A stretch of 32,532 nucleotides of DNA, taken from the NCBI GenBank assembly GCA_937873005.1, contig CALMUY010000202.1, positions 1 to 32,532 of the forward strand, in the 5' to 3' direction. This stretch comes from an uncultured Aeromicrobium sp. (GTDB lineage Bacteria > Actinomycetota > Actinomycetes > Propionibacteriales > Nocardioidaceae). The notes under the pieces were generated by a model. It ran no database searches. It was not told the DNA's origin and saw only the letters and a program-made list of their open reading frames with translations. Made by a program: the position numbers and the translations under genes. Positions 6,252-11,674 of the stretch are shown here, one piece after another. Numbering within the stretch: position 1 is the stretch's first letter; the number at the start of each line of letters is the position of its first letter.

Positions 6252-9095
6252 TCAATCGGACGACACTCTCGTGTTGGTCGCAGATTTCGCCAGCAATTCT
6301 GATAAGTGCAGCGCTTGAACGCCAGCGAGATCATCGAGTTGCGTACGGCAACTAAACCCATCCGCGAGCACGATCGTGCCCGGCTCGGCTGCTTCGATCG
6401 CCGGCAACAATTGCAGGTGGGCGACATCAACTGAGACTTCGTAGTGGCCCTTTTCGACTCCGAAGTTACCGGCCAAGCCACAGCAACCCCCGAGTCGCTG
6501 AACTGTGGCGCCCGTCGCTCGTAGAAGTTCCATGTCGGCATCGAAGCCGATCACGGCATTCTGATGACAATGCGGTTGCACAACGATCGTAGCTTCGGCA
6601 AGATCAGGGGCCTGCCAATCCTCGTCTGCGGCCAACAATTCGGCCAAGGTAAATACTCCCGCCGCGACCTGAGCAGCCCTCGGATCATCAATCAAGTCCA
6701 GCGCGTCGTGACGCAATACAGCAAGGCACGATGGCTCCAACCCCAGCACCGGAATCTGCTTCTCAACGAACGGGTGCAACTGTTCGATAGCCGCCTGAAC
6801 CATCTCTCGGGCGGTATCGAGTTGTCCTGTCGAAATCCATGTAAGACCACAGCACTGGGGTCGGTTCAGCACTTCAACGTCATAACCCGCGTTTGCCAAA
6901 ACGTCGAGCGCGGCCAAGCCCGCCTTAGTCGAAAAGTACTCAGTGAATGTATCCGCCCAAATCACGACGGGCTTCAGATTGGAGCCGACCACCAACTTCG
7001 GAGCGCTCGAGGTGAACTTCCGGGTAGAAAACTGGGGCAAACTGCGCCGTTGATCAACACCTGCGACCCACCGCGCAATGTGCGCAAGTCCTGGCACCTT
7101 CAGCGTGAAGTTGACGAGCCACGAAAGCCGTGAACCGACTGTGAGTTTCGCCCACATGGGCAGTCGACCGATGATGTAGTGGCTGCGCGGCCTAAACCGA
7201 CCACGGTAGGTCTGATGCAAGACTTCGGACTTGTAACTGGCCATGTCGATTCCTGTTGGGCAGTCACTCAAACACCCCTTGCAGGAAAGGCACAGATCTA
7301 ATGCTTCATGCACTTCTGGACTGCGCCAGCCCTTGTCGATGAGGCGACCGTCGACCATTTCTTGCAAGACACGAGACCGGCCGCGGGTCGAATCTTTCTC
7401 GTTCCTCGTCGCTTGAAACGAGGGGCACATGACTCCGACGCCGGGCGCGGCGAGGCACTTGCCGACCCCCGTGCAGCGGTGAACGGCCGTACCGAAATTG
7501 CCGTTGTCACTGACGAGCGTGAGGCCCTCACGGATCGGCGCAAGCCCCTCTTCCCAATGCGCGCCTTGAGAACGTAAATCTGCATCGAGTGGCCGCGGTG
7601 CAACCAGCACGCCTGGATTAAGCAAATTCTGAGGATCAAAGACACTCTTGACGGCCGAAAAGATGTTCATCGCGTCGGCTGAATACATATGGCCCAACAG
7701 TTCAGACCGGGCTCGGCCGTCGCCATGCTCACCCGAGAACGACCCACCATGACGGGCAGCCAATATTGCGGCATCGGTAAGGAACGCGCGGAACCGCTCG
7801 GCACCATCGGGCGCGTCCAATTCGAAGGTGATGCGCACGTGAACACACCCGTCGCCAAAGTGCCCAAACGGTTCGCCATCGACACCGTGCTGATCGAGCA
7901 GTGCGACAAACTCACGCAAGTAGGCGCCCAAATTCTCTGGCGGGACAGCCGCGTCTTCCCAACCAGCGAGAGCTGGCTTATCAAGCGCGCGACTCGCCAG
8001 ACCAGCACCTTCTTCTCGCACGCGCCACAAGACGGCTTGCACGATCGGGTCGGTGACGTGAACGGCACCCAATGCCCCGCTGGCCTTGACCACGCTTTCG
8101 GCGTTCGAGCGCAATTGGGTTGGGTCTTCGCCGGCAAGTTCGACATACAGAAAGCCACCACCACTCGGGAGCTCCGGAACTGCCGCACGACCGTGTTTGG
8201 CGCGGTAGACATCAACGATGCGGATTCCGAGCCCCTCACAGGCAACAGGCCCAAACGGCAAAAGCAGAGGCACGTGATCGGCTGCGTCGATCATGGTGGG
8301 ATAGCCCAACACGACAAGATGGCGGAAGGCAGGATCGTGCACGAGATCGACCGTGGCTCCCAACATCACCGCAAGTGTGCCTTCGGTACCTGCCATGAAC
8401 GAAGCCACATCAAAATTGCGTTCCGGCAAGAGATGTTCAAGGCTGTATCCCGAAACCTGACGGCCGAAGCGGCCAAACTCCGTGCGAATTGTTGCCAAGT
8501 TCGAACCCACGAGGCTCCGCAAATCCTCAAGCCGTGCCGAATCTACCGAGACGTCACGGCCCACTTGAAGGCGTTCGCCGCCGATCGTGAGCACATCGAG
8601 TGCGGCGATGTTATCGGCGCTTCGCCCATAACCCAGCGCCCGGTTTCCACACGCGTTGTTCGCAATCATGCCGCCGACCGTGCAACGCGTGTGCGTCGAA
8701 GGGTCTGGCCCGTATCGCAAGCCAACCGGCGTGGCCGCAGCCTGCAACTTCGCGTGAACGACACCAGGTTCAACTTGGGCAGTTGCCGTTGTCTCATCGA
8801 TCGCAAGGACCTTGTTGAGGTGCTTGGAAAAGTCGAGAATGACTCCAGTTCCGATTGCGTTTCCGGCAATCGACGTGCCAGCGCCCCGCGCCGTCAACGG
8901 GGTCTGCGTCTCGGCACAAGCAGAAACGACAGCTTGGACTTCGTCGATGTCGCGTGGCCTGACGACGACTTCAGGAACGACTCGGTATAGAGATGCGTCT
9001 GAGCTATAGAGCGCACGTGTGAGACTCGAATTGTCGACATCGCGCACACCGTTGCTTTTGAGCGCCGCGACGACATCTCCATTCGGATCGCTCAT
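6252..9095 (-). CDS. FAD/Fe-S oxidoreductase, probable D-2-hydroxyglutarate dehydrogenase (YdiJ-type)
   Basis: This is a 947-residue fusion. The N-terminal FAD_binding_4 domain (about 40-250) contains TARGAGTSIAGNA and GGMIANNACGNRA. The FAD-oxidase C domain follows, with GHFGDGCVHVRI and SGEHGDGRARSELLG. Next is a ferredoxin-like part with two Cys clusters (C541, C547, C557 and C602, C605, C608, C612), then a C-terminal CCG domain with PQCCGLTW and GGCCGLAGN. This architecture is shared by E. coli YdiJ and by some D-lactate or glycolate dehydrogenases. The HOT-type neighbour makes D-2-hydroxyglutarate the best substrate guess (inference). Electrons probably pass via the Fe-S part to the respiratory chain. 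I prefer the ATG at 9095, two bases after the upstream stop; an in-frame GTG at 9104 would overlap that gene. Confidence 0.85.
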   Translation of the reverse strand: MSDPNGDVVAALKSNGVRDVDNSSLTRALYSSDASLYRVVPEVVVRPRDIDEVQAVVSACAETQTPLTARGAGTSIAGNAIGTGVILDFSKHLNKVLAIDETTATAQVEPGVVHAKLQAAATPVGLRYGPDPSTHTRCTVGGMIANNACGNRALGYGRSADNIAALDVLTIGGERLQVGRDVSVDSARLEDLRSLVGSNLATIRTEFGRFGRQVSGYSLEHLLPERNFDVASFMAGTEGTLAVMLGATVDLVHDPAFRHLVVLGYPTMIDAADHVPLLLPFGPVACEGLGIRIVDVYRAKHGRAAVPELPSGGGFLYVELAGEDPTQLRSNAESVVKASGALGAVHVTDPIVQAVLWRVREEGAGLASRALDKPALAGWEDAAVPPENLGAYLREFVALLDQHGVDGEPFGHFGDGCVHVRITFELDAPDGAERFRAFLTDAAILAARHGGSFSGEHGDGRARSELLGHMYSADAMNIFSAVKSVFDPQNLLNPGVLVAPRPLDADLRSQGAHWEEGLAPIREGLTLVSDNGNFGTAVHRCTGVGKCLAAPGVGVMCPSFQATRNEKDSTRGRSRVLQEMVDGRLIDKGWRSPEVHEALDLCLSCKGCLSDCPTGIDMASYKSEVLHQTYRGRFRPRSHYIIGRLPMWAKLTVGSRLSWLVNFTLKVPGLAHIARWVAGVDQRRSLPQFSTRKFTSSAPKLVVGSNLKPVVIWADTFTEYFSTKAGLAALDVLANAGYDVEVLNRPQCCGLTWISTGQLDTAREMVQAAIEQLHPFVEKQIPVLGLEPSCLAVLRHDALDLIDDPRAAQVAAGVFTLAELLAADEDWQAPDLAEATIVVQPHCHQNAVIGFDADMELLRATGATVQRLGGCCGLAGNFGVEKGHYEVSVDVAHLQLLPAIEAAEPGTIVLADGFSCRTQLDDLAGVQALHLSELLAKSATNTRVSSD

Positions 9096-9097
9096 GT

Positions 9098-10408
9098 TCA
9101 CCACAATTCGATTGATTCGCTCAAGATCGTTTCGACATCTTCTTCACGAACAACTCGAGGTGCTGTTGACAAAAGACGTTGTTGTTTGAGCGTACCTTCC
9201 GTCAATTCTGGAATGTCAGCAGCCGTGAAGCCCAGTTCTGCCAACCCTGACGGCATTCCCACATCGCGCAAGATCTCGGTAATGACTTGGGGCAAGAACT
9301 CGGCCGGATCGTTCGGCAGCTGCGCGTTTGGGGCGAGCAACGTGGCTGCCCTGATATGCCGTTCAGGTGAGGCCTCGAAGGTAAATCGAAACGCCGCCGG
9401 TGCCGTTTGCGAAACTGCCATTCCGTGTGGCACAAGCCCATGCGAGTGCGCTTCGGTCCGGGCCGGATAGTCGTGCGGCCAATAATCCCGAACTTGACTG
9501 GCAATCGGATAGGCGTTCGCGTGGGGGATGTGTACTCCCGCATTCCCAAAGCCCAGACCGGCGAACGTTGCCGCCAACGCCATCTGTTCACGCGCCTCGA
9601 CATTACTGCCATCGCTGACTGCTGCTCGGAATGCTCCCGACAACAAGGACAGCGCCTGCTCTGACCATTGGTCGGAAATTGGGTTCGAGCCGCAATAAGG
9701 CACACGTTGTTGAGGCGTCTTTGCTTCATAACTCGTGTAGCCGCGGGCCGTATAGCTTTCGAGCGCGTGACAGAGCACATCGAGTCCGGACGCTGCCGTG
9801 ACTAGCGCGGGTTGACTGACCGTGAGCTCTGGGTCGACGACGGCAGCAGTTGGCCGCAACATCGCGTGCGAAATTCCTGTCTTCACGCGTTGCGCCGTGA
9901 TGTCCAGAACACAAATGGTCGTGCTTTCGCTGCCGGTCCCCGTCGTTGTCGGTACGGCCACGAGCGGCAACAAATCGTTTGTGGGCGGTCTGCCATCACC
10001 GATGGGCGCGTTCACGTATTCCATGAGTTCGCCGGGATTCGTCACCATCAAGTTCATCGCTTTAGAAGTGTCGATGACCGAACCGCCACCGACGGCAATC
10101 ACGACGTCAAAGGGCCCTGACTCGCGAGCAAAATCGACAGCTGCTTGGACGCTCACATCCGTCGGCTCGATTCGCACATCGTCAAAAAGCACAACCTGCG
10201 ACCCCGCAGCAGCGAGACTATCGACGATTTCCTCAATACGGCCTGAGGACATGAGGTTCTTGTCCGTCACGAACAGCACTCGCCTTGGCGAGTACTTCGC
10301 AATATCGGCTGCTATTTCAAACCGTGCGCCCGTTCCGAACTTGAGCGCCGGGGCGCCGTACGTGAAGATCGTTTCAGGACGCGAAACCGGATCAAGAAAC
10401 ACTCGCAT
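9098..10408 (-). CDS. Iron-type alcohol dehydrogenase family, hydroxyacid-oxoacid transhydrogenase (HOT/ADHFE1-like)
   Basis: HOT converts 4-hydroxybutyrate plus 2-oxoglutarate to succinate semialdehyde plus D-2-hydroxyglutarate. The 436-residue protein resembles human ADHFE1 (compared from memory) through APIGDGRP, AVPTTTGTGSES, DVLCHALESYT, GSNPISDQW, AGLGFGNAGVH and LVPHGMAV. The nucleotide-binding GGGSVID lies at 107-113. Likely metal ligands are D210, H214 and H328. At 300 there is Tyr where ordinary iron alcohol dehydrogenases have a His ligand; I recall the same in ADHFE1. I start at the ATG at 10408, which has AAAGGA directly upstream; an open frame runs 39 codons further but with non-family sequence. 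It forms an operon with the FAD/Fe-S oxidase. A plain 4-hydroxybutyrate dehydrogenase is the alternative. Confidence 0.85.
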   Translation of the reverse strand: MRVFLDPVSRPETIFTYGAPALKFGTGARFEIAADIAKYSPRRVLFVTDKNLMSSGRIEEIVDSLAAAGSQVVLFDDVRIEPTDVSVQAAVDFARESGPFDVVIAVGGGSVIDTSKAMNLMVTNPGELMEYVNAPIGDGRPPTNDLLPLVAVPTTTGTGSESTTICVLDITAQRVKTGISHAMLRPTAAVVDPELTVSQPALVTAASGLDVLCHALESYTARGYTSYEAKTPQQRVPYCGSNPISDQWSEQALSLLSGAFRAAVSDGSNVEAREQMALAATFAGLGFGNAGVHIPHANAYPIASQVRDYWPHDYPARTEAHSHGLVPHGMAVSQTAPAAFRFTFEASPERHIRAATLLAPNAQLPNDPAEFLPQVITEILRDVGMPSGLAELGFTAADIPELTEGTLKQQRLLSTAPRVVREEDVETILSESIELW

Positions 10409-10543: not shown

Positions 10544-11674
10544 ATGGGTAAAACGTCAATTGCGTTGATCGGTTGTCTCGTTTTACTACTGGGGACAGCC
10601 GCATGTGGTCCCGAGTCGAGCGCTGAACTCGCTGACGGTTCCAATAGCGAGACGACAACACAATCGGCCCACGAATCAGCACCGGCTAGCCCAATCGCCT
10701 TCGGCATTTCGGTACCGCACGGCTCCGTCCAATTGGGTCCGCTGGTGCGTTGGCGCTCCCGAGCTCTTCTCGACTCGTACCAAGTGGATCTCGACGCAAT
10801 TCTTGCAACCGAGGAGGCCGAACGTCTCCAGAAAATCGAAGAGCAACAGGCGGAGGACCCGTCTTTCACTCCCCCAACTCCCACGCCGACGCCAACGCCG
10901 ACTCGCGCCACCAAAGATACGTTTGCCAAGTTAGACGAGCCGCCTCGTGCTGACACATATGTCTCACTCATGCGAATTACCGGTAAGCCGACGCCAGTGG
11001 TGCGATCGATGCTTGCCAAATTGGATGTACTGCTGCCTGAGGCGGGCATTGTCAGTGATGATCTTTCGCAGTACTGCACCGCTCGTAATCGGCGAGTCAC
11101 AGGCTGTTCGCTTTCCGTTGAAGGCAAGACCCCCAGTGGTCGCACTCTTGACGTTCACTTGACCGTCGACCCAGGTGACATTGTTGAACGCACGAGTGCC
11201 ATAGGTTCCAACGAACGACCAGTAATGGTCCTATACATGCGCCAGACCGGTGATCCGCGTGAAGCGCAACAGCATCGCGATCCAGAACGTCTCAGTACGC
11301 CGGCAGATGTCAGCAAGACCGCTGAGAAGACTGGCTGGATCTGGCCGCGTATGGATGAATCCACGCCCGAGACAGATCCCGTTATCGACGGATGGTCAGC
11401 ACCTGCGAGTGCCACCGTCTTGTTAAGTGGGCATCAACCCGACTTTGCCACGATGGCTACGTATCGAGCCTCGATCACCGAAGAAATTTCACAGTCGTTC
11501 ATGTCATCGCAACTTGGCAAGACTCAACCGAAAACGGACGTACTCACTGAACTGAACGAAACGATTCACAGTTCGTTCGGGGTGACCACAGATCAGCGAC
11601 AAGTTCGCGCAGTCCAGATTGCTTCGGCCCGCGGGAACTTCGTCTCACTTTTCATCTTGCCCAAGGGTTGGTAA
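10544..11674 (+). CDS. Predicted lipoprotein with Pro-Thr linker, function unknown
   Basis: I do not recognise the family. The 376-residue protein starts with a lipoprotein signal peptide: a positive start, a hydrophobic stretch, then GTAAC with Cys21 as the lipidated residue. A Ser/Thr/Glu-rich spacer follows. A charged stretch at about 80-105 (TEEAERLQKIEEQQAED) leads into a PTPTPTPTPT linker near 113-122. The larger C-terminal part contains two Cys (in QYCTARNRR and TGCSLSV) that could form a disulfide. It is probably anchored on the outer face of the membrane. The ATG has a good AAGGA site. It is divergent from the HOT operon and followed by an acyltransferase gene on the same strand, 64 bp away. 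Confidence 0.8.
   Translation: MGKTSIALIGCLVLLLGTAACGPESSAELADGSNSETTTQSAHESAPASPIAFGISVPHGSVQLGPLVRWRSRALLDSYQVDLDAILATEEAERLQKIEEQQAEDPSFTPPTPTPTPTPTRATKDTFAKLDEPPRADTYVSLMRITGKPTPVVRSMLAKLDVLLPEAGIVSDDLSQYCTARNRRVTGCSLSVEGKTPSGRTLDVHLTVDPGDIVERTSAIGSNERPVMVLYMRQTGDPREAQQHRDPERLSTPADVSKTAEKTGWIWPRMDESTPETDPVIDGWSAPASATVLLSGHQPDFATMATYRASITEEISQSFMSSQLGKTQPKTDVLTELNETIHSSFGVTTDQRQVRAVQIASARGNFVSLFILPKGW

Follow-up and report, generated by a model that had tools for sequence, protein, structure and literature searches.

The rpoC-rpsL interval of an Aeromicrobium genome encodes a coupled gene pair

The stretch of DNA analyzed here (the window; 32,532 nucleotides) corresponds to contig C202 in the genome of an uncultured Aeromicrobium species; this genome measures 2.17 Mb and is 97.5% complete. 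It contains two intact open reading frames on the minus strand, one for an iron-dependent alcohol dehydrogenase (iron-ADH) of the hydroxyacid-oxoacid transhydrogenase (HOT) type, P0002, and one for a large flavoprotein, P0001 (Table 1). Among named relatives, an Aeromicrobium MAG is the closest, with both proteins 94% identical. The HOT gene ends with a TGA stop codon at 9100-9098, and the flavoprotein gene starts either with a GTG at 9104, giving a 7-nt overlap, or with an ATG at 9095, leaving a 2-nt gap, so that its start is coupled to the HOT stop in either case, as described in the initial annotation. P0002 comes first and P0001 second, followed by rpsL, rpsG, and fusA, while a divergent lipoprotein-like gene lies upstream of HOT and rpoC lies further out. 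The pair is chromosomal and occupies the rpoC-rpsL interval. The divergent lipoprotein-like gene (window 10544-11674) is kept together with HOT at this site across Aeromicrobium.

Table 1 Genes, domains, and residues of the HOT-flavoprotein locus (window coordinates).
Feature	Position	Strand	Basis
HOT-family iron-ADH gene P0002, 436 aa	9098..10408	-	ORF, Pfam, alignment, tree
Metal ligand Asp210 (= FucO D196)	9779..9781	-	alignment
Metal ligand His214 (= FucO H200)	9767..9769	-	alignment
First HOT-specific insertion, about residues 222-239	9692..9745	-	alignment; definition PMC5125639
Metal ligand His296 (= FucO H263)	9521..9523	-	alignment
Tyr300 (= FucO His267 / human ADHFE1 Tyr334), no metal ligand	9509..9511	-	alignment
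Second HOT-specific insertion, about residues 307-324	9437..9490	-	alignment
Metal ligand His328 (= FucO H277)	9425..9427	-	alignment
YdiJ-type FAD/Fe-S/CCG flavoprotein gene P0001, 950 aa from GTG (947 aa from ATG at 9095)	6252..9104	-	
FAD_binding_4 domain, residues 44-181	8562..8975	-	Pfam
FAD-oxidase_C domain, residues 258-498	7611..8333	-	Pfam
Arg424, at human D2HGDH Asn443 position	7833..7835	-	alignment
4Fe-4S dicluster domain, residues 541-619	7248..7484	-	Pfam
First CCG cysteine-rich domain, residues 725-797	6714..6932	-	Pfam
Second cysteine-rich motif C846, C874, C875, C919	6348..6569	-	alignment; conserved, uncalled by Pfam

The iron-ADH has the insertions and metal ligands of the HOT subfamily

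Pfam and NCBIfam identify P0002 as a generic iron-ADH, with the Fe-ADH domain in Pfam. We aligned it with FucO, YiaY, and about 40 relatives. Two insertions are unique to the HOT subfamily: ~19 residues that follow the second metal ligand, and a loop of 13 residues ahead of the last ligand (PMC5125639). When P0002 is judged by the features of the HOT family (cd08190), the first insertion is present with 17-19 residues and is missing in FucO and YiaY, the second is present with 18 residues compared with 13 in most bacterial HOTs, and the ligands D210, H214, H296, and H328 are all in place. HOTs with both insertions form a clade with 100/100 support that is separate from FucO and YiaY in a tree containing no ADHFE1 sequence. 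Both diagnostic insertions, the four ligands, and this clade of its own bear out the earlier description of the iron-ADH as HOT-like, and it does not group with the NAD-dependent alcohol dehydrogenases. Plasmid-borne relatives with 55-60% identity to P0002 carry the NCBI name hydroxyacid-oxoacid transhydrogenase. Three haloarchaeal proteins with the same NCBI name (L068, L183, L184) have the first insertion and lack the second, and for these the name may be too generous.

The initial annotation also placed Tyr300 at a usual metal-ligand position. The tyrosine is indeed there, but the position is not that of a ligand: its counterpart in E. coli FucO is His267, a non-ligand residue on the substrate side, and in human ADHFE1 it is Tyr334 (PMC5125639). 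With all four ligands present, Tyr300 as a lost metal ligand is ruled out, and the error has no effect on the relay proposed below.

The flavoprotein belongs to the YdiJ-type superfamily

Pfam detects FAD_binding_4, FAD-oxidase_C, Fer4_8, and CCG domains in the single P0001 chain, which confirms it as a fusion of FAD, Fe-S, and CCG modules. Its earlier description as being like E. coli YdiJ holds for the architecture and for the best family match, with a YdiJ score of 415 bits versus 213 for GlcD among the curated families, but does not extend to equivalence, as the curated cut-off of the YdiJ equivalog (NF049975) is 1350 bits and the identity is ~25%.

The catalytic residues of human D2HGDH (R386, H434, H441, E475, and H476), which bind the metal, the C1-carboxylate, and the C2-hydroxyl, correspond to R363, H415, H422, E459, and H460 in P0001. 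The residues of the human enzyme that bind the second (C5) carboxylate, K401, Y432, and N443, correspond to W382, F413, and R424, and P0001 therefore does not have the Lys401/Tyr432/Asn443 set of the short human-type D2HGDH. The position of Arg424 is an arginine in every YdiJ-type sequence of the alignment, including E. coli YdiJ, and a methionine or leucine in GlcD and in a distant clade of FAD/Fe-S fusions. In D-lactate dehydrogenases and GlcD, the Asn443 position is occupied by a hydrophobic residue (PMC7801405); P0001, with its arginine, does not follow that pattern. Arg424 may instead serve as an anchor for the second carboxylate of the substrate. The four-domain chain, the R/H/H/E/H set, and the arginine at the Asn443 position all place P0001 in the YdiJ-type superfamily, and it groups with YdiJ and HglS-linked homologs, away from GlcD and from the Met/Leu clade. 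Possible substrates of that distant clade (L188, L189, L201, L204) are short D-hydroxy acids, for example D-lactate.

The pair recurs in Aeromicrobium and on catabolic plasmids

We surveyed 48 other Aeromicrobium genomes, counting by hand from coordinates, and found HOT in 41. Once two genomes in which a contig end blocks the call are left out (G045, G048), the flavoprotein adjoins HOT on the same strand in 37 of the 39 that can be judged; in the remaining two (G004, G020), HOT is at the site and the flavoprotein is elsewhere in the genome. This recurrence shows that the gene coupling is not due to chance. In four relatives, the flavoprotein occupies this site and no HOT was found: three of them have a GntR gene beside it (G006, G041, G047), and one has the flavoprotein alone (G017, 82% complete). 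It follows that the flavoprotein has other work too.

HOT and the flavoprotein are separated by a GntR/FCD regulator in at least eight Aeromicrobium genomes; this regulator is missing from the lineage of the window. It lies between the two genes in L008, L009, L010, L022, L025, L031, L045, and L046, and accompanies a flavoprotein without HOT in L039, L041, and L043. The GntR-family protein DhdR senses D-2-hydroxyglutarate in Achromobacter (PMC8651671), and by analogy the regulator of the sister species is a candidate D-2-hydroxyglutarate sensor.

In the wider phylum, HOT was found in 46 of 396 genomes; the genome scan with a single-protein query returned few HOTs. Outside the family, G110, G125, and G322 have the HOT-flavoprotein pair. 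HOT is also followed directly by a FAD/Fe-S gene on catabolic plasmids for tetrahydrofuran and dioxane, those of Rhodococcus ruber YYL and Mycobacterium dioxanotrophicus PH-06, pairs that cannot be explained as neighbors brought together by the conserved rpoC-rpsL site alone.

Gene neighborhoods point to 4-hydroxybutyrate and D-2-hydroxyglutarate

The two plasmid pairs resemble the Aeromicrobium pair in gene order and differ from it in being plasmid-borne and in what lies beside them. On R. ruber plasmid pYYL1.1, the order is a monooxygenase cluster, aldehyde dehydrogenase, GntR, HOT, and FAD/Fe-S gene, and on the PH-06 plasmid it is succinate semialdehyde dehydrogenase (SSADH), MFS, HOT, and FAD/Fe-S gene. 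R. ruber YYL degrades tetrahydrofuran (THF) by a pathway that passes through 4-hydroxybutyrate; in THF breakdown, γ-butyrolactone or 4-hydroxybutanal gives 4-hydroxybutyrate and then succinate (PMC7464125). In the actinobacterial family f21, an AttM/AhlS-type lactonase is found within 1.5 kb of HOT at 20 of 23 loci and, at L101 and L102 (longer stretches L141 and L202), within about 4 kb, with CoA ligase and polyhydroxyalkanoate (PHA) synthase commonly present too. At L101-L124, L141, L154, L155, and L202, HOT is clustered with the lactonase, CoA ligase, aldehyde dehydrogenase, and class III PHA synthase (PhaC). The f21 clusters suggest storage or mobilization of 4-hydroxybutyrate, and a role in γ-butyrolactone metabolism for lactonases that are usually named quorum quenchers. 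HOT and AttM are also neighbors in Deinococcus, as are a lactonase and HOT in the haloarchaeon Haladaptatus, where the HOT protein is without the second insertion. Across these contexts the shared theme is a γ-lactone or 4-hydroxy acid, and the proximity of HOT to lactonases, SSADH, PHA synthase, and THF genes indicates 4-hydroxybutyrate as its probable substrate.

The neighbors of the flavoprotein point to D-2-hydroxyglutarate, the product of HglS. At L128, the flavoprotein gene has the gene for L-piperidine-6-carboxylate dehydrogenase (808 bits against a cut-off of 730) on one side and, on the other, genes for a glutamate-dehydrogenase-like protein and HglS (675 bits against a cut-off of 600). 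This is a predicted lysine pathway in which the flavoprotein would serve as the D-2-hydroxyglutarate dehydrogenase. The flavoprotein gene starts one base after DUF1338/HglS in two Burkholderiaceae. HOT-linked and HglS-linked flavoproteins co-occur in each of two separate subclades of the flavoprotein tree, and because D-2-hydroxyglutarate is what HOT and HglS have in common, it is indicated as the flavoprotein substrate. A general linkage between HglS and the flavoprotein was rejected, as none of eight HglS loci sampled across the actinobacterial phylum had the flavoprotein nearby, and the operon evidence thus comes from three loci that were found via the flavoprotein.

The window genome encodes no second YdiJ-type protein. 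It has an SSADH-like ORF (525 bits, under the family cut-off of 646) and an E. coli-type SerA (PRK11790) over its cut-off; since E. coli SerA makes D-2-hydroxyglutarate, SerA-derived D-2-hydroxyglutarate is likely in this organism as well. The genome has no HglS at E ≤ 1e-60, no malonate/methylmalonate-semialdehyde dehydrogenase over the cut-off, no match to a lactonase, and no GABA transaminase over the cut-off, and owing to the last two, the source of 4-hydroxybutyrate is not visible in it. At G000:C28:8949-10307, an aldehyde dehydrogenase gene (AldB-like by eye) has one in-frame TAA and is either a pseudogene or the result of an assembly error.

A proposed two-enzyme hydride relay

We think it likely that HOT and the YdiJ-type flavoprotein form a two-enzyme hydride relay that would oxidize a hydroxy-acid, most likely 4-hydroxybutyrate, to its semialdehyde while D-2-hydroxyglutarate is recycled. 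The 4-hydroxybutyrate/D-2-hydroxyglutarate module suggested in the initial annotation is supported by our comparisons, through the HOT clade and insertions, Arg424, and the HOT and HglS contexts. In this relay, HOT would oxidize the ω-hydroxy acid and hand the hydride to 2-oxoglutarate, forming D-2-hydroxyglutarate, by way of a bound nicotinamide that we infer from ADHFE1, which binds its nicotinamide cofactor tightly (PMC5125639). The flavoprotein would then return D-2-hydroxyglutarate to 2-oxoglutarate; the electrons would go to FAD and on through the Fe-S and CCG domains, with the quinone pool as their probable acceptor. A separate SSADH-like enzyme would convert succinate semialdehyde to succinate. 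Because 2-oxoglutarate would be regenerated by the flavoprotein, it would be needed only catalytically, no free NAD would be used, and a toxic by-product would be kept from building up; the net effect would be oxidation of the hydroxy-acid into the respiratory chain. Removal of SerA-derived D-2-hydroxyglutarate is probably a further task of the flavoprotein. We observed directly the family features and active-site residues, as well as the coupling of the genes and the recurrence of this coupling; the enzyme activities, cofactor, electron acceptor, and hydroxy-acid used by this organism are predicted from these by homology and gene context. We lean slightly toward a fuller picture of a dedicated, operon-encoded bacterial 2-oxoglutarate/D-2-hydroxyglutarate hydride shuttle, in which 4-hydroxybutyrate would be oxidized without free NAD, the Fe-S flavoprotein would feed respiration, and D-2-hydroxyglutarate would be a true intermediate, sensed by the GntR regulator in sister species.

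The relay could also be right with a different substrate, such as another ω-hydroxy acid or 3-hydroxypropionate in a propionate shunt like that of C. elegans, where the ADHFE1 ortholog HPHD-1 oxidizes 3-hydroxypropionate and yields D-2-hydroxyglutarate that DHGD-1 recycles (PMC10096224). The window genome, with neither a lactonase match nor a GABA transaminase over the cut-off, is compatible with this substrate. However, bacterial HOT genes have lactonases, SSADH, PHA synthase, and THF genes as neighbors, and the genome also lacks a malonate/methylmalonate-semialdehyde dehydrogenase over the cut-off, so that we consider 3-hydroxypropionate or another such acid unlikely. It is in our judgment distinctly improbable that there is no relay, with HOT an ordinary 4-hydroxybutyrate oxidoreductase and the flavoprotein a housekeeping dehydrogenase for the D-2-hydroxyglutarate by-product of SerA that became its neighbor by chance. 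The presence of an E. coli-type SerA fits this explanation, as do the four relatives that keep the flavoprotein without HOT and the two in which the genes are apart, but catabolic plasmids of distantly related actinobacteria carry the same pairing, their flavoproteins coming from two separate subclades, and this is not explained by a chance neighbor.

We give very little probability to a D-lactate or glycolate dehydrogenase identity for the flavoprotein combined with an NAD-linked alcohol dehydrogenase identity for the iron-ADH. In the PDB, the top sequence matches of the FAD domain are enzymes for lactate, D-lactate, and glycolate, a resemblance explained by their shared fold. Against this identity stand the higher score for YdiJ than for GlcD, Arg424 in place of the hydrophobic residue, the HglS operons of the flavoprotein, and the HOT insertions of the iron-ADH; in addition, no lactate permease was recognized, by eye, beside the flavoprotein homologs examined.

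Relation to known systems

The proposed relay, involving 4-hydroxybutyrate and D-2-hydroxyglutarate, most resembles the HPHD-1/DHGD-1 system of C. elegans and the human ADHFE1/D2HGDH system, in which a HOT-family enzyme makes D-2-hydroxyglutarate and a flavin dehydrogenase recycles it. There, however, the genes are unlinked, the recycling enzyme is a short D2HGDH without Fe-S or CCG domains, and the substrate shown is 3-hydroxypropionate, whereas in Aeromicrobium the genes are coupled and the predicted recycling enzyme is a YdiJ-type fusion. YdiJ of E. coli and Pantoea shares with P0001 the fusion of FAD, Fe-S, and C-terminal GlpC-like regions, the invariant catalytic residues, and the arginine at position 424, and the E. 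coli enzyme is a strict D-2-hydroxyglutarate dehydrogenase; it differs in its low identity to P0001, which falls under the equivalog cut-off, and in being tied to SerA rather than HOT (PMC9504171). The HglS-linked proteins of lysine catabolism (L128, L175, L176) belong to the same family and are likewise co-operonic with an enzyme that makes D-2-hydroxyglutarate, although there it is made from 2-oxoadipate and not by a transhydrogenase. A literature search, with most subscription journals outside its scope, found no description of a bacterial HOT paired with a D2HGDH, and the relay pairing, known from animals, has most likely not been worked out before in bacteria.

The usual view of D-2-hydroxyglutarate is that of an error product or an oncometabolite. 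If the relay is correct, bacteria would have a pathway for the deliberate production and use of this compound, and the 4-hydroxybutyrate step of tetrahydrofuran breakdown would be filled in. As of 2016, HOT activity outside animals was called unknown (PMC5125639), and the HOT gene contexts described here give a first candidate substrate for it. The relay also offers a function for the common unnamed class of "FAD-binding and (Fe-S)-binding domain-containing" proteins. Flavoprotein paralogs with about 44% identity (L160, L205, L174) instead have a GABA-transaminase-like gene on one side and an SSADH gene on the other, and HOT is absent from these loci.
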